Of a stretch of DNA of 64,000 bases, positions 40,000 through 46,297 are shown piece by piece (positions within the stretch are counted from its first letter, which is position 1; each line of letters opens with the position of its first letter). The stretch is from Curtobacterium poinsettiae (lineage in GTDB: Bacteria > Actinomycetota > Actinomycetes > Actinomycetales > Microbacteriaceae). The stretch covers positions 558,001 to 622,000 of the forward strand of contig NZ_CP106879.1 of assembly GCF_025677645.1 (NCBI RefSeq), written 5' to 3'. The notes beneath the pieces are model-generated. The model was not told the origin of the DNA. It worked only from the letters and a program-made list of their open reading frames with translations, and did not search any database. Made by a program: the position numbers and the translations under genes.

Positions 40000-40185
40000 G
40001 GCTGCACGCTACCGTCCTGCTCCGCTGATCGTTCCGGGCCGGTCCTTATCGGTTCCGCCGTCGAACTTTCGACCCCCTCATGTGGGGGCGCAGGCATGAG
40101 AGAAGCTCCGTAACGTTCTGTTTGGTTGCACAGCACCGTCGCAGGGACTGGTGAGCTTGGGCAGCCCTAGAGGGGTTCTTTTCGC

Positions 40186-43100
40186 GTGTTCGCTGCGTCG
40201 TGGTCCGGTCGTGTTCGTGGAGTGATGCTGGCAGTGGTGACGTTGGTCGCCCTGCTGGGTTCGTTGCTGGTGGTGGTGTCGCAGCCGGCACCGGCGCAGG
40301 CTGCGGTGACCGGGACGGGCGGGCAGTACGTGCCGATGCCGTCCAACGCCCGCGTGTTGGGTGGTGCGACCGAGAAGGGCGTGTTCCGCACGGTGCAGGT
40401 CGCCGGAGTCGCCGGACTGCCGTCGTCCGGGATCGGCGCGGTGACGATGATGGTCACGATCGCCGACCCGTCGGGGTCGGGGCAGCTGCAGATGCGCGCC
40501 GACGCTGACGACACGACGACACTGATGATGATCTACAACTCTGGTGTCGGCGGGAACACGTCGAACACGGGCCTGCTCGCGGTGGCGGATGACGGCACGA
40601 TCCAGGTGCGGACGGAGACGGCGCAGTCGAAGGTGATCATCGACGTCACCGGGTACTACACGTCGACGAAGAACGGTGTCTCGGCCGGTGGGTTCGTGGC
40701 GATGTCGCCCGCTCGCGTCCTGGACTCCCGCGGCGGGATCGGTGCCGCGCAGGGGCAGATCCCTGCAGGTTCGCAGCGCACCATCCAGGCGACCGGGTCG
40801 AATGGGATCCCGGCGGGTGCTGCGGCGGTCGCGGTGAACATCATCGTGATCAACCGTGAGGCCAAGGCCGGCTACGTCCGTCCCACGCCGACCGGTGAGA
40901 CCCGCAGCACGGGGGTGCTGAACTACAACTCCAACGAGGGCCAGACGACGGCGATGAACGCGCAGGTCGCGTTGAACGCCGACGGGAAGTTCAGCATCGA
41001 CACCGCCGCGGAGGGCGGGAAGATCGACCTCGTCGTCGACATCCAGGGCTACTTCCTCCAGTCGAACCCGGGTGGTGGCTTCACCCCGCTGAACGGCCGG
41101 CTCATCGACACCCGCAACAGTTCGAGCATCGCCTCGGGCGCATCGTTCACGGTCCAGGTCGGCGGGGTGCAGGGGGCTCCGACGGTCGAGGGGGGACTGT
41201 CCGCAGTCGCCGTGACGTTCACCGCGGTCAACGACAGCGGTGCTGACTCGTACGCGAAGATGTGGGCCGACGGTGCCGCGGAGCCGGAGTCGTCAGCGAT
41301 CAGCAGCGACCGAACCTCGAAGGTCACGAACACGGTCGTCGCGCCGGTCGGTGCGAACGGGAAGATCCGCATCAAGAACATGGGCACGGCGGCGATGAAC
41401 TACCTCGTGGACCTGCAGGGTGCCTACAACTCGCTGCCTGGTGGCCCGGGCAACACGAACCGGACCGGTCAGCGCACCTCGGCGACGACGCTGCCGTTCC
41501 CGATCACGGACCAGACCAACGCGTCCGTCGACGTCGGCACCGGCAACCTGCTCGTCACCACGACGGCGATGAGCCTGCCGGGTGTGACGCAGAACACCAC
41601 GATCGGTGCCGCGTACAACTCCCGCAGCACCACCGTGGGGGATGCGAACACGATGGATGCGAACCGGTGGCAGTACGCCCTCGCCGGCGCGGGGGATCTC
41701 ACCGCGAACGCCGACGGTGTCATCTACACCGACGCTGTCGGCACGGCGTGGCAGTTCCGTCCGTCGGGGGCGCAGGGTGCGTTCATCAGCCCGGCCGGTC
41801 TGCCGCAGACCCTGACCCGCGTCGACAACTCCACGACGCATGAGTACACGCTGAAGGGGTGGACGTCGAACTCGACCACGCACTTCAACCTCGCCGGCCA
41901 GCCGACGTCGATCGTGGACCGGAACCAGAACCAGATCAGCTTCAACTCCGACGAGCCCGGCTACACGCTGAAGTCCCTCGTCTCGACCGCCGGTGTGGCG
42001 GGGGCGCGGACGGCGAACTCGTCGTACGCGAGCGGTGTGCAGACGTTCTCGCAGACCAGCGGCTCGAGCTCGCGTTCGGTGTCGTGGACGAAGAACAGCA
42101 CCGGCGACATCACCACGTACACGGACGCAACCGGCAAGAAGACCACGTTCGCCTACACCAGCGGGGACCTCACCTCGATCACGGCACCCGAGGGTGGGGT
42201 GACGGCGTTCACGTACGACTCATCCGACCGGGTCACCAAGGTCGAGCAGCGCAATACGACCGCCGGCTCGCCTGGGACCGCTGTGACGCGGTTCTCGTTC
42301 AAGGACGACACCACCACGTTGGTCGCTGACCCGCGGTCGGACCAGTCGGTCGCGGTGGCGGATGCGAAGTACACCAACTACACCCTCGACGGGAACGACC
42401 TCGTCACGAACGTCGTCGACGCCGCGAAGCGGGAACAGTCCCGCTCCTACAAGTCGACGAACAACGGCGTCGAGAACTCCACCGTCGGTGCCGGCGCGGG
42501 CGCATCCAAGACCGAGAACACCTACGGCGCCAACAACGAGCAGTCCCTGACCCAGACCCAGACCGGTTCGGGCACCAAGGGCACGGCGACCTACGGCTCC
42601 GGTGCTGCAACGGCGTACCTGCCGGCATCAACCACAGACAGCTCGGGCAACGAGACCAAGTACGAATACGACGGCCCCGGCAACCAGACCTCGACCGCCA
42701 CGGGCGGCACCGGTCCGGAAGCGGCGAAGGCAGAGCTCGAGTACAACAAGAAGGGCACGGATCCGTACGCGTGGGGTGCGGTGAAGTCCGCGACTGCTCC
42801 CGGCGACGGGGATCGGAAGACGACGTATTCGTACGACACCCACGACCAGCTGCTGGCCATCACGGCGCCGGCGAACACGGTCGGGGAGCAGAAGTACTCC
42901 TACGACGACTTCGGCCGCGTGAAGAGCTACACCGACGGTGACGGCGGCGTCACGACGTACACGTACGACAACGACGACCGGCTCCTGACGACCGCGTTCG
43001 ATGACGGCACCGCAACGGTGACGAACACCTACGACGGCAACGGCAACCAGCTGTCTGAGCAGTCCGCGACGGGCACCATCACCAACACGTACGACCAGCG

Positions 43101-44649
43101 GAACCGGCTCACCTCCACGGTGAACACCGCCGGCGGCAGCACCGTGTCCTACGGCTACGACCTCGCCGGCAACACCCACACCGTCACTGACGGCCACGGC
43201 ACGGTCACGCACGACTACGACGTCGCCAACGTCCTGACTCGCACCACCTACCCGACCGCGAACGGCGGGACGGCGAAGCAGGTCTACAAGAACGACGACC
43301 ACGGCCGCCGCACCGACACCTGGCTCGGCGCCGTCGAGAACACGGACCCCACCGAGGACCCGACGTCGTGGCAGGCGCACCAGACGATCACCTACGGGGT
43401 GTCCGACCACGTCACCGATGTTCGCGCCGTGAACGCCGATGACCCGTCCAAGCCCGTCGTGAGCCTGACGTACTGCTACATCACCGGGATCGACGCCGGG
43501 AGCGACTGCTCGGCGACGAACAGTGCGAACGCCACGGACAGGATCCAGTGGGTCAAGGACAACATCACCCAGCAGACCACCACGTACACGTATGACTCGA
43601 ACAGCCGCCTCACCAAGGCAGCGCAGGCCGGCGGCGCGACGAACATCACGTGGGCGTACACCTACGACGCCGCCGGGAACCGGCTCACCGCCAAGCGCGG
43701 CGGCAACGTCACGAGCTCGCAGACGCTGACCTACAACACCGTCGGGCAGATCACGACCGATGGTTACGCGTACGACGGCGTTGGCAACATGGTGACGGCA
43801 CCCGGGCAGACGTTCACCTACAACGGTGCGCAGCAGATGACGTCCTCCACGAAGGACGGTGTCACCACCCGCTATGAGTACGCCGGCGGCGACATGAACA
43901 AGCTGCTCTCGCAGGCCACCGACGGGGGAGCGGAGTACGACTACACGTATGGCACGTCCGACTCCAACGGTGTCCCCGTGGTGACCAGCCGCACCATCGC
44001 CGGCACCGGAACCGCGTCGGTCATCAGCGACCCTGGCACTGGGCAGCCGCTGGACCTGCAGACGACTGATGGCACCACGAGCATGTGGGTCATCGACGGC
44101 ACCGGCAGCCCGGCCGCCGCGATCGCCGACACAGGCAAGACGGCCTACACCGTCTCGTACGACCCCTACGGCGTCGAAACCGTCAAGATCGGCGGCGAAA
44201 GCGCCCAGTGGCAGCAAAATCCCTACGGATTCAAGAGCGGCCTGCGCTCGTCCAGCACCGACAATGGCCTCACGAAATTCGGGTACCGGTGGCAGACCAG
44301 CGTCACTGGCGGGTGGATCGAACGCGACACCCTCGACGCACCCCTCGACTCTCGTAACGGGAACCGGTATGCCTATGCAGGGACCGATCCGCTCAATGCC
44401 TCCGACGCCTCCGGCAAGAGCGCTTACGACGATGTGTACGATCAGGCTTGCGGTCTCGGAGTCGGCACAACAGTAACCTTTGGTACTGGCATTACCGGGC
44501 TATTGGGCGGATTTGCGGTTTCCGCCGCAGCAGGAGTTGGCGGCCTTGCCTATGCGGGAGCATGCGCACTCGGCGGAATTCCTCGCAACATGCCTGATCT
44601 GTATGCCGACAACCCTGAACTACTCGTTGCTACAGCAGGCGGTTATTAA
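40186..44649 (+). CDS. Secreted RHS/YD-repeat polymorphic toxin
   Basis: GTG at 40186; 1487 residues. A Sec signal peptide (hydrophobic core about 14-33, cleavage near APAQA-AV at 39/40) is followed by three ~120-residue repeats, each starting with an ARVL(D/G)-type motif and ending VD-x-x-G-Y/A-Y (about 45-158, 165-290, 297-415). YD-repeats typical of RHS shells (YSYDTHDQL, TYTYDNDDRL, TYDSNSRL) fill about 640-1310, and the RHS-associated core occupies 1320-1411 (YDPYGVE to NRYAYAGTDPLNASDASG). The final 76 residues (1412-1487) are a distinct Gly/Ala-rich hydrophobic tip of lower GC. The RHS cage would deliver this tip to a neighbouring cell. Confidence 0.88.
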   Translation: MFAASWSGRVRGVMLAVVTLVALLGSLLVVVSQPAPAQAAVTGTGGQYVPMPSNARVLGGATEKGVFRTVQVAGVAGLPSSGIGAVTMMVTIADPSGSGQLQMRADADDTTTLMMIYNSGVGGNTSNTGLLAVADDGTIQVRTETAQSKVIIDVTGYYTSTKNGVSAGGFVAMSPARVLDSRGGIGAAQGQIPAGSQRTIQATGSNGIPAGAAAVAVNIIVINREAKAGYVRPTPTGETRSTGVLNYNSNEGQTTAMNAQVALNADGKFSIDTAAEGGKIDLVVDIQGYFLQSNPGGGFTPLNGRLIDTRNSSSIASGASFTVQVGGVQGAPTVEGGLSAVAVTFTAVNDSGADSYAKMWADGAAEPESSAISSDRTSKVTNTVVAPVGANGKIRIKNMGTAAMNYLVDLQGAYNSLPGGPGNTNRTGQRTSATTLPFPITDQTNASVDVGTGNLLVTTTAMSLPGVTQNTTIGAAYNSRSTTVGDANTMDANRWQYALAGAGDLTANADGVIYTDAVGTAWQFRPSGAQGAFISPAGLPQTLTRVDNSTTHEYTLKGWTSNSTTHFNLAGQPTSIVDRNQNQISFNSDEPGYTLKSLVSTAGVAGARTANSSYASGVQTFSQTSGSSSRSVSWTKNSTGDITTYTDATGKKTTFAYTSGDLTSITAPEGGVTAFTYDSSDRVTKVEQRNTTAGSPGTAVTRFSFKDDTTTLVADPRSDQSVAVADAKYTNYTLDGNDLVTNVVDAAKREQSRSYKSTNNGVENSTVGAGAGASKTENTYGANNEQSLTQTQTGSGTKGTATYGSGAATAYLPASTTDSSGNETKYEYDGPGNQTSTATGGTGPEAAKAELEYNKKGTDPYAWGAVKSATAPGDGDRKTTYSYDTHDQLLAITAPANTVGEQKYSYDDFGRVKSYTDGDGGVTTYTYDNDDRLLTTAFDDGTATVTNTYDGNGNQLSEQSATGTITNTYDQRNRLTSTVNTAGGSTVSYGYDLAGNTHTVTDGHGTVTHDYDVANVLTRTTYPTANGGTAKQVYKNDDHGRRTDTWLGAVENTDPTEDPTSWQAHQTITYGVSDHVTDVRAVNADDPSKPVVSLTYCYITGIDAGSDCSATNSANATDRIQWVKDNITQQTTTYTYDSNSRLTKAAQAGGATNITWAYTYDAAGNRLTAKRGGNVTSSQTLTYNTVGQITTDGYAYDGVGNMVTAPGQTFTYNGAQQMTSSTKDGVTTRYEYAGGDMNKLLSQATDGGAEYDYTYGTSDSNGVPVVTSRTIAGTGTASVISDPGTGQPLDLQTTDGTTSMWVIDGTGSPAAAIADTGKTAYTVSYDPYGVETVKIGGESAQWQQNPYGFKSGLRSSSTDNGLTKFGYRWQTSVTGGWIERDTLDAPLDSRNGNRYAYAGTDPLNASDASGKSAYDDVYDQACGLGVGTTVTFGTGITGLLGGFAVSAAAGVGGLAYAGACALGGIPRNMPDLYADNPELLVATAGGY

Positions 44650-45027
44650 ATGCGCAGGGGTTTACTAGTGGGCGTGATTGCGCTCTCATTTGGCTGGCTT
44701 GGCGCACTTGCGGCGCTCAGGCTGGAACAACGATCTGACATGGGAGCGTTGTGGGTCCCGGGGAGCGTGCTAGCCATATTGGCTATGCTGCTTCTGCGGG
44801 GTGAGGGGAATAGAGGTAAGCGAATAATCTCACGGCCCTTGGTTACAGTATCGGCAGCACTTTGTATCGTCGCTTTTGTTATGGTCTTCGTGCTTCCCAG
44901 CATTGCGGGCGTCTTTGGTGGTGTAGCAGGTGGGTCGCTCGGCATTCTTATTGGCCATCTGACCGGCATATCGAGGCAAGCCTCCGACCGAGCCGGTCGG
45001 GAGCATTCGGAAGCGAATTCCAGGTAG
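44650..45027 (+). CDS. Small polytopic membrane protein, candidate immunity protein
   Basis: The ATG follows the RHS stop with no gap. The 125-residue protein has about four hydrophobic helices (about 4-24, 33-51, 63-88, 88-107) and a polar C-terminus. Its GC is clearly lower than that of the core genes, as for the RHS tip. In RHS loci the gene after the tip usually encodes immunity; a membrane-spanning immunity protein fits a membrane-acting toxin. No family is recognised, so this is an inference from position and topology. Confidence 0.65.
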   Translation: MRRGLLVGVIALSFGWLGALAALRLEQRSDMGALWVPGSVLAILAMLLLRGEGNRGKRIISRPLVTVSAALCIVAFVMVFVLPSIAGVFGGVAGGSLGILIGHLTGISRQASDRAGREHSEANSR

Positions 45028-45580
45028 GCGAAGGTCGGCGTACGCCAGGGCCGGCTCACTCCGTGGCGGAGCTCCTACGCGGCGTGAAGCATCTGGCTGT
45101 CGAAAGGGCACAGTATGGCCCTAAAGAGGCTCTACTGGTGATGTCGGAACCGGTGAGGGCGCAGAAGCCTCGGTAGGGCATACCCGCAGGATCACACAGG
45201 AGGCGAAACGCTGTCCGATAGCCGGTTGTTCACCGCTACACGCCAACTGTCGCCCTCAGAGCGCTCCGTTGTCTTCTGCTGTCTGACCAGGGGCTTCCGG
45301 TATGACTGTCCCGCAAAAATTCCCGGTGAAGGGGCGCTGAATGCTTCACCGTTTCGTGCTCATCCTCGAGGTGCTCAGCAGTGGGCGTCGCGGGAGAGCG
45401 CGACGGATGTTGCGAGCAAGCAGCTCAAGGGGCTGAAGGCCCGTGATACCCCGAGCAAGTCTGCCGTCGGCCTGGACCTGCGGGCCAGTCGATCTCGCGG
45501 GAGTGGAGCCCCGGCGACGGCCCAGCGTGCCCCGGAGTCCTCGCACCGAGCCCGAGTCATGGATTCTCTAGGATCGACCC
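45028..45580. other. Geneless lower-GC stretch downstream of the RHS locus
   Basis: About 550 bp with only short, overlapping, unconvincing frames on both strands and no start with a clear ribosome binding site. Base composition is lower in GC at the left end and returns to normal to the right. It may be the decayed remains of alternative toxin/immunity cassettes or of an insertion element, but I see no repeat ends that prove this. Confidence 0.4.
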
Positions 45581-46297
45581 ATGTCCACGACCATGCCCGG
45601 CTTCGGGACGGAGCGCATCACGCAGCTCGGCCTGCGCGACCGCGTCTACGACCGGGTGCTCGAGGTCCTGATGGGCCACGACGTCGAACCGGGCATGCGA
45701 CTGTCGATCGACGGACTGGCGCGCTCCCTCGGGGTCTCGCCGACCCCGGTGCGCGAAGCCCTGGTGCAACTCGAACGTACGGGCCTGGTCACCCGCGAAG
45801 CGAACAAGGGGTACCGGGTCTCCCCGCCCCTGGCCGGCGACCAGCTCGAGGCCCTGTTCGACGCCCGGCTCATCGTGGAGAGCGGCGCGGTCGAACTCGC
45901 GGCCCGCGGCGACGTGGACGGTCTGCGCGAGCGACTGGTGGCAGCGCTCGACGAGCAGGCTGCGGTGGCCGCCGAGGTCGCGTCCGTCGGTGCTGCGCAC
46001 GCTCCGGAAGAGCTGATGGCCCGCTTCTTCCGCAGCGACTGGCAGTTCCACCAGCTGATCTTCGACGCAACGCGGAACCCGTTCCTCGAGGAGATGTCCG
46101 AGATCATCACGACGCGCGTGCACCGCATGCGGCAGATCGTCGAGGGTGGCGGGGACGACACGGATCGTGCGGTCCAGGAACACCGGGCCATCCTGGAGGC
46201 GCTGGCTGCGGACCCGACGTCGGCCGTCGCCGCGATGCGGCTCCACATCGACGCCGTCCGGTTGCGTTCGCGCGCCGACGCGTCCCACACGAGCTGA
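45581..46297 (+). CDS. GntR-family (FadR/FCD) transcriptional regulator
   Basis: ATG at 45581; 238 residues. The N-terminal wHTH is at about 18-85 (RVYDRVLEVLMGHDVEPGMR, then LARSLGVSPTPVREALVQLE), and the FCD ligand domain at about 90-230 (LFDARLIVESGAVELAA, then SDWQFHQLIFDATRN with metal-binding His). It heads the sugar-catabolic cluster and a 16-bp perfect palindrome lies in front of the next gene, so it is probably a repressor relieved by a pathway intermediate. Confidence 0.9.
   Translation: MSTTMPGFGTERITQLGLRDRVYDRVLEVLMGHDVEPGMRLSIDGLARSLGVSPTPVREALVQLERTGLVTREANKGYRVSPPLAGDQLEALFDARLIVESGAVELAARGDVDGLRERLVAALDEQAAVAAEVASVGAAHAPEELMARFFRSDWQFHQLIFDATRNPFLEEMSEIITTRVHRMRQIVEGGGDDTDRAVQEHRAILEALAADPTSAVAAMRLHIDAVRLRSRADASHTS

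Follow-up and report, generated by a model that had tools for sequence, protein, structure and literature searches.

The window analysed here is a stretch of 64,000 nt (G000:C1:558001-622000) from the 3.76 Mb genome of Curtobacterium poinsettiae. It contains the gene of an RHS protein that ends in a short C-terminal tip with two cysteines and, directly behind it, the gene of a small protein with four hydrophobic segments. Tip and neighbour are one pair of a large class that is carried by one lineage of RHS proteins, has paired cysteines as its commonest shared trait and was missed in an earlier sequence-only reading of the locus. The tip is probably an antibacterial toxin acting on membranes, with the neighbour as its immunity protein. 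The features of the locus are:

40186..44649, + strand: RHS protein carrying the tip, 1487 amino acids, GTG start, YD repeats (Pfam RHS_repeat, PF05593, E 1.8e-27; TIGR03696)
40186..40305, + strand: predicted Sec signal peptide, residues ~1-40, recognised by eye from a basic start, a hydrophobic run at 15-31 and AQA-A
41521..44415, + strand: RHS core, predicted beta cocoon, residues 446-1410 (AlphaFold2 model and Foldseek)
44335..44415, + strand: predicted aspartyl-protease plug, D1384 to G1410 (Asp spacing as in the Rhs toxin Tse5, and conservation)
44397..45451, + strand: exchangeable cassette, no DNA match to locus L065, flanks ~90% and 95% identical
44419..44646, + strand: tip, residues 1412-1487, predicted membrane-acting toxin, 76 amino acids with Cys1422 and Cys1460 (full-length homologue at L062:4199-4429(-))
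44596..44646, + strand: C-terminal tail D[LF]YA..(P/Q)E..V(A/S)TAGGY, the last 17 residues, found on tips with other hydrophobic parts
44650..45027, + strand: protein of 125 amino acids with four hydrophobic segments, predicted immunity protein (counterpart at L062:3825-4196(-))

The RHS carrier protein

With its YD repeats and RHS-associated core domain, the carrier can be assigned by sequence to the Rhs/YD-repeat polymorphic toxins. TIGR03696, the NCBIfam model of the RHS-associated core domain, matched with 32.7 bits at a cut-off of 32.5 and ended at Gly1410 (44415), which sets the start of the tip at residue 1411 or 1412. An AlphaFold2 model of residues 446-1487 (1042 residues, 38-row alignment) predicts a beta-cocoon fold for the core and reached a mean predicted local distance difference test score (pLDDT) of 81.1, being confident up to approximately residue 1352. 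Foldseek matched this model to bacterial Rhs cores, RhsA, Tse5, teneurins and Tc BC components, with expect values (E) of 1e-38 to 1e-42 for the bacterial matches and modest template modelling scores (TM-scores; query TM-scores of 0.25-0.53 among the top-ranked bacterial Rhs and Tc matches). Tse5 matched the window core both by sequence (E 5.2e-12) and in Foldseek (E 1.4e-38). The spacing between D1384 and D1407 is 23 residues, equal to that between D1141 and D1164 of Tse5; D1407 was invariant in 38 aligned cores and D1384 was kept in at least 90% of them. The signal peptide was called by visual reading and a count of the hydrophobic run, not by a signal-peptide program.

Between signal peptide and core, at 40306-41520 (~400 residues), three repeats of ~120 residues were recognised by eye, ending in ...DVTGYY, ...DIQGYF and ...DLQGAY (pattern V[TIL]DxxGYY/F-like). 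A Pfam scan gave no match for this stretch, which is possibly a surface-binding part of the RHS protein.

The tip and the adjoining gene

The sequence-only reading had placed a toxin tip and an immunity candidate at 44419..45027, and these coordinates are right, with 44419 being the start of codon 1412 just behind the core end defined by TIGR03696. The drop in G+C content (GC) that it described was confirmed by values of 0.660 for the measured core stretch, 0.564 for the tip and 0.571 for the neighbour gene. Its description of the tip as 76 Gly/Ala-rich residues with two cysteines and an acidic tail also agrees with our analysis: the Gly/Ala fraction is 0.38 over 77 residues, six D/E stand against two K/R, and Trp is absent. 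As regards the two membrane helices proposed for the tip, one clear segment over the cut-off was found (residues 29-45, counting K1411 as 1), and the second was marginal. Here and throughout, transmembrane segments are hydrophobicity counts and not the output of a topology program. An AlphaFold2 model of the tip alone, built on a two-row alignment, is a helical hairpin with long helices at 3-30 and 33-58, in which the cysteines at positions 12 and 50 would roughly face each other, an arrangement that is only suggestive.

The next gene begins, as had been read, without any gap, its ATG directly following the TAA of the RHS gene, and the predicted membrane protein of about four helices corresponds to four counted segments at residues 5-21, 33-49, 65-81 and 85-101. 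No family had been recognised earlier for either the tip or the neighbour, and none was identified here, as scans against Pfam, NCBIfam, PHROGs, PADLOC and PDB sequences yielded no convincing match for either. Specifically, the tip had no Pfam match at E 1, and its profile found no chain at E <0.1 among PDB sequences, the best being an aquaporin at E 0.12; comparison with solved toxins is weak in this respect, since the structure of Tse5 leaves most of its toxin part unresolved.

A second pair and exchange of the cassette

The search for other RHS cores with this tip, suggested in the sequence-only reading, retrieved a complete second pair at locus L062 of Microbacteriaceae bacterium PS02333 (G011). 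The RHS core there is 48% identical to the window core. Its tip has the same length as the window tip, is ~52-54% identical and ends in the same seven residues, VATAGGY. The neighbour in G011 has 124 residues and 28% identity to the window neighbour (E 1.8e-5), with its four hydrophobic segments at nearly the same positions. As the tip is kept to the last residue in a second species, the layout is beyond chance. A search of genome contigs found no relatives of the window neighbour, and against ~5.8 billion proteins both neighbours retrieved only themselves in a word-based search of limited reach (125 candidates scored for the window, 786 for L062).

Tip and neighbour are exchanged together as a cassette. 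The closest cores, at L064 and L065, share 88% protein identity with the window core and carry tips unrelated to the window tip. DNA identity of ~90% between L065 and window positions 40032-44396 breaks off at the end of the core and resumes at 45452 (95%). With L064, ~90% identity covers 40067-44396 and resumes at 45523 (89%), the gap at 44397-45522 being interrupted solely by a weak 138-base match at 45213-45349. Behind the window pair (45028-45700), a search for remnants of older cassettes gave weak, short matches only. The exchange, the second pair in G011 and the co-segregation described below bear out the earlier view of tip and next gene as partners; the truncation that it had named as an alternative does not hold. 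Where homologous cores continue into a different tip, that tip is likewise short and similarly built, not a longer domain.

The tail of the tip recurs with few changes in Frondihabitans sucicola NBRC 108728 (G377) behind a different hydrophobic part, on a tip of 54 residues with two cysteines that follows a short core remnant. This match was obtained with a two-row tip profile (E 2.9e-4, 398 genomes searched), and a remnant of the tail is also present in G060. Otherwise the tail is rare. It is absent from 69 of the 71 tips collected below, including those on the closest cores; the tip profile, run on 398 family genomes, found nothing but the window and a single tail match, and a tail profile run on these and 396 genomes of the order returned the window and G377, the latter by construction as a member of the profile, and four weak matches at E 0.004-0.006. 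The G377 tip is followed by two tandem small open reading frames (ORFs) with hydrophobic stretches (L156:3722-4324), whereas the window has one four-segment protein. An origin of the latter by fusion of two such two-segment proteins was rejected, as similarity was not found.

Short tips with paired cysteines on one RHS lineage

The C-terminal core is present in 31 of the 66 genomes of the genus (50 matches) and in 48 loci among 11.3 million genome contigs. Besides Curtobacterium, the genera of this lineage include Leifsonia, Cryobacterium, Frondihabitans, Frigoribacterium, Schumannella, Subtercola, Microbacterium, Arthrobacter, Cellulomonas and Actinomadura. From 96 core ends, 71 non-identical tips were kept; dropped were 10 ends that stop short of the core end or run off the contig, 10 duplicates, one identical tip and four ends (18, 20, 24 and 157 amino acids) outside a length filter of 40-140 amino acids, 25 in total. 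Of the 48 genome-contig loci, 34 were used, L100-L113 being omitted because, judged by contig name lengths, they were the same contigs as loci already included.

The 71 tips have 42-111 residues (median 77). Two cysteines occur in 57 tips and four in 11, with 0, 1 and 3 cysteines in one tip each, so that two or four are present in 68 of 71 tips, compared to 40% with an even number of at least two under a Poisson model of equal mean. Cysteine accounts for 162 of 5429 tip residues versus 80 of 36670 core residues. An adjacent ORF of 45-160 residues with at least two hydrophobic segments follows 65 tips, the six tips without one being L063_5905, L133_3725, the three L139 ends and L144. These neighbours start between -59 and +137 bases from the RHS stop and in 41 of 65 cases at or before the base after it, taking the first in-frame start codon, which in some cases is too early. 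Two hydrophobic segments were counted in 60 of the neighbours, three in 3 and four in 2, namely exclusively in the window and in G011. Clustering at E 1e-5 produced 40 clusters, whose representatives have even cysteine numbers in 37 and a neighbour in 36 cases; clusters at E 1e-3 were useless because the Gly/Ala composition chains 51 tips together. The GC of the tip plus 300 bases was below that of the core in 62 of 68 cases.

No Pfam or NCBIfam family was recurrent among the 71 tips. Matches of individual tips comprised three DUF families, each hit by one member (best E 2e-4), and a single NCBIfam model (E 0.0086). Individual neighbours hit assorted membrane families, none by more than three members (best E 1.6e-5), which is to be expected for hydrophobic sequences. 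A literature search excluding subscription papers and preprints found no paper on this class. TelE and EsxX are LXG toxins with glycine zippers. A Gly zipper was rejected as common motif of the class, as it was present in 36 of 71 tips versus 24.1 expected from shuffles and absent from the window tip.

Several loci (L065, L066, L078, L087, L063, L114, L119 and L123) contain extra downstream units, each made up of a core remnant with a further tip and a further small membrane ORF. Units of this type resemble the known rhs orphans. Among the Gly/Ser-rich tips of the collection (L063 end 5905, L074 5401, L076 5226, L080 5313 and L139 3382), several contain CxxxC, e.g. CYYVCLS, and those of L076 and L080 are mutually similar (E 3e-8). 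Tips of this beta-like kind possibly represent a second mode of action.

Controls and co-segregation

Among 38 other ORFs of the window, which were chosen mechanically and are not annotated genes, one had such a neighbour, compared to 65 of the 71 tips. As a second control, 29 RHS ends of the genus with other cores were picked from 128 matches for ready access to their loci; none of them overlaps the lineage-core matches. Their tips have 127-379 amino acids, with none at 111 residues or fewer. Even cysteine numbers of at least two were found in 7 and such a neighbour in 4 of these 29 ends, whereas a hydrophobic segment was present in 23, so hydrophobicity alone is no mark of the class. As the 71 tips are related by descent, the significance of all these class-versus-control counts overstates their independence. 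Outside the window, the same genome encodes two more RHS proteins with another core (G000:C1:142414-142569(-) and G000:C1:2291430-2291588(-)), whose long tips (304 and 266 residues) lack cysteines. In G049, a short tip with several cysteines was observed on a different RHS core type (L008:1501-1710); the short-tip plan is therefore not wholly confined to this lineage and may have spread beyond it.

Tips and neighbours co-segregate within the class. Similar neighbours were found in 19 of 74 pairs of similar tips (E <1e-3) versus 20 of 2006 other pairs, and 2000 shuffling runs averaged 1.4 such pairs and never exceeded 8. Together with the cassette exchange, the pairing of tip and neighbour is thus well supported by genetics.

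Proposed mechanism and alternatives

Our preferred explanation, to which we assign a probability of about 0.65, is that the tip is an antibacterial toxin acting on membranes and that the adjoining gene encodes a membrane-bound immunity protein. The RHS protein would be exported via Sec with its N-terminal signal peptide, and its YD repeats would fold into a closed cocoon that encloses the tip. The D1384/D1407 pair of the plug is predicted to cut after Lys1411, by analogy to Tse5, which is cleaved after Leu1168, four residues past D1164 (PMC10684867), and would release the tip as a free peptide of 76 residues. Outside the reducing cytoplasm, the two cysteines may form a disulfide that staples the helical hairpin. 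The peptide would then insert from outside into the cytoplasmic membrane of a neighbouring cell and depolarise it. For an action from the outer face, no passage into the cytoplasm would be needed. In the membrane of the producer, the four-segment protein would block the peptide. Permeabilisation of membranes is a predicted and likely activity of the tip. What the data show directly are the border between core and tip, the second pair in G011, the cassette exchange, the co-segregation and the layout of the class; export, cleavage, disulfide, membrane action and immunity are inferred.

Several observations weigh against this proposal. Only one segment of the tip is clearly hydrophobic, the second candidate helix being weaker; the model of the isolated tip is of low confidence (mean pLDDT 58.9), and the tip lacks a GxxxGxxxG zipper. 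In the core model, plug and tip (model residues 935-1042) have a pLDDT <50, so the geometry of cleavage is without structural support. The Asp motifs read D-A-P-L and D-A-S-G, keeping the letters of DPxG (DPxG-x18/19-DPxG) only in part, and a further invariant residue, D1381, lies three residues ahead of D1384. In the class, similarity between the neighbours was not detected for 55 of the 74 tip-similar pairs; tip matches driven by composition, rapid divergence or genuine exchange may account for this. Four to six tips, including L063_5905, L074, L076, L080 and L139_3382, are Gly-rich and probably form beta structures rather than membrane helices, so one mechanism may not fit all.

Alternatively, the tip could be a receptor-dependent inhibitor of a single membrane protein instead of a pore in the lipid bilayer, similar to many class II bacteriocins, with the tail binding the target and the neighbour shielding it. 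The tail is the best conserved part of the tip and recurs in G377, a member of another genus, behind a different hydrophobic part. Furthermore, ionophores of contact-dependent inhibition (CDI) systems require membrane receptors (PMC11630599), and the receptor of microcin V is set by its last 32 residues (PMC10233263). However, apart from the window the tail was seen only on a single full homologue, an orphan unit and a remnant, and with 69 of 71 tips devoid of it we regard this explanation as rather unlikely. Considerably less probable is a role of the tip as a membrane or wall anchor that holds the RHS protein on the producer, with the neighbour as an assembly partner instead of an immunity protein. 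A hydrophobic C-terminus next to a membrane protein would suit an anchor, particularly as toxicity is predicted, but such a role would not require diversification into 40 clusters, cassette exchange at a single site, conservation of paired cysteines or presence on downstream units with a mere core remnant. The long tips of 127-379 amino acids on other RHS lineages of the genus (29 examined) might suggest that the window tip is the degraded stump of a longer toxin domain. We consider this practically ruled out by the cassette swap and by the homologue in G011, which has equal length, ends at the same residue and shares the last seven letters; moreover, all tips of the lineage have 42-111 amino acids after the 40-140 amino acid filter that removed four ends.

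Beyond the toxin and immunity functions proposed for this pair, this lineage of the Actinomycetota as a whole could be a dedicated carrier of bacteriocin-sized, disulfide-stapled membrane peptides. Hydrophobic and toxic to the producer itself, these would be kept soluble in the cocoon, exported via Sec, released by self-cleavage and each accompanied by their own small membrane immunity protein. The tail would then represent a detachable targeting module, shuffled among different membrane parts and comparable to the C-terminus of microcin V. We put this forward tentatively, as a possibility that is somewhat doubtful at present.

Comparison with known systems

The statements on other systems refer to the parts of the cited works that were accessible. 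By analogy, Tse5 and its immunity protein Tsi5 may provide the nearest mechanism for the window pair. Tse5 has an Rhs cocoon and a pore-forming C-terminus, and Tsi5 has two predicted transmembrane regions (PMC10684867, PMC9637101). Shared features are the cocoon, the 23-residue spacing of the Asp pair ahead of the toxin and, as predicted here, a membrane-acting C-terminus and a small membrane immunity protein. In contrast, the C-terminal toxin of Tse5 has 149 residues (1169-1317) and has a PAAR-like spike of the type VI secretion system (T6SS) as its carrier, whereas the window tip has 76 residues with two cysteines and its carrier a predicted Sec signal; the two regions of Tsi5 compare to four hydrophobic segments in the window neighbour. 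In the works consulted, pore formation by Rhs toxins is described solely for T6SS effectors from Gram-negative bacteria (Tse5; PMC10684867, PMC9637101).

In Streptococcus suis, Rhs/WapA proteins are exported by Sec, cleave themselves and have truncated downstream units (PMC12704120). Sec export (predicted here), a YD-repeat core, exchangeable C-termini and truncated downstream units are common to both systems, but the accessible part of that report describes no membrane-acting tips of this kind, in contrast to the short tips with paired cysteines of the Curtobacterium lineage. CDI ionophores of the CdiA-CT EC93 type are membrane toxins that are likewise polymorphic, and their membrane immunity proteins evolve quickly, with ~30% identity inside a group (PMC11630599). 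They consist of an entry domain and a five-helix ionophore with a Gly zipper, whereas the window tip is too short and lacks the zipper. Class II microcins such as microcin V resemble the tip in their size of ~5-10 kDa and a possible disulfide and, if the predictions for the window pair are right, also in acting at the inner membrane and in having a dedicated immunity protein (PMC10233263). However, they have their own gene, a double-glycine leader and export by an ATP-binding cassette (ABC) transporter, while the window peptide is the end of an RHS ORF of 1487 amino acids. The W-TIP domain is also a small, hydrophobic tip of polymorphic toxins with two predicted membrane helices (Zhang et al., 2012; PMC3482391), but it requires the RxxR and W-TIP motifs and was restricted to proteobacteria (PMC3482391), and the window tip has no Trp. 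From its sequence, the tip thus appears to belong to none of the CDI ionophores, class II microcins or W-TIP domains; the carrier is an Rhs protein, and the size and cysteine pattern of the tip, as read from sequence, are described by none of the families searched.

Implications

If the proposed function is correct, an entire RHS lineage in Gram-positive bacteria of soil and plants would be specialised in tips of bacteriocin size. This would account for the ability of Gram-positive RHS proteins to work without a translocation domain, since a target without an outer membrane exposes its cytoplasmic membrane directly. The collection would then offer 71 candidates for small toxins, 65 of them listed with a matching immunity candidate, and the combination of a short tip, an even number of cysteines and an abutting small membrane ORF would provide a signature for finding more of them.

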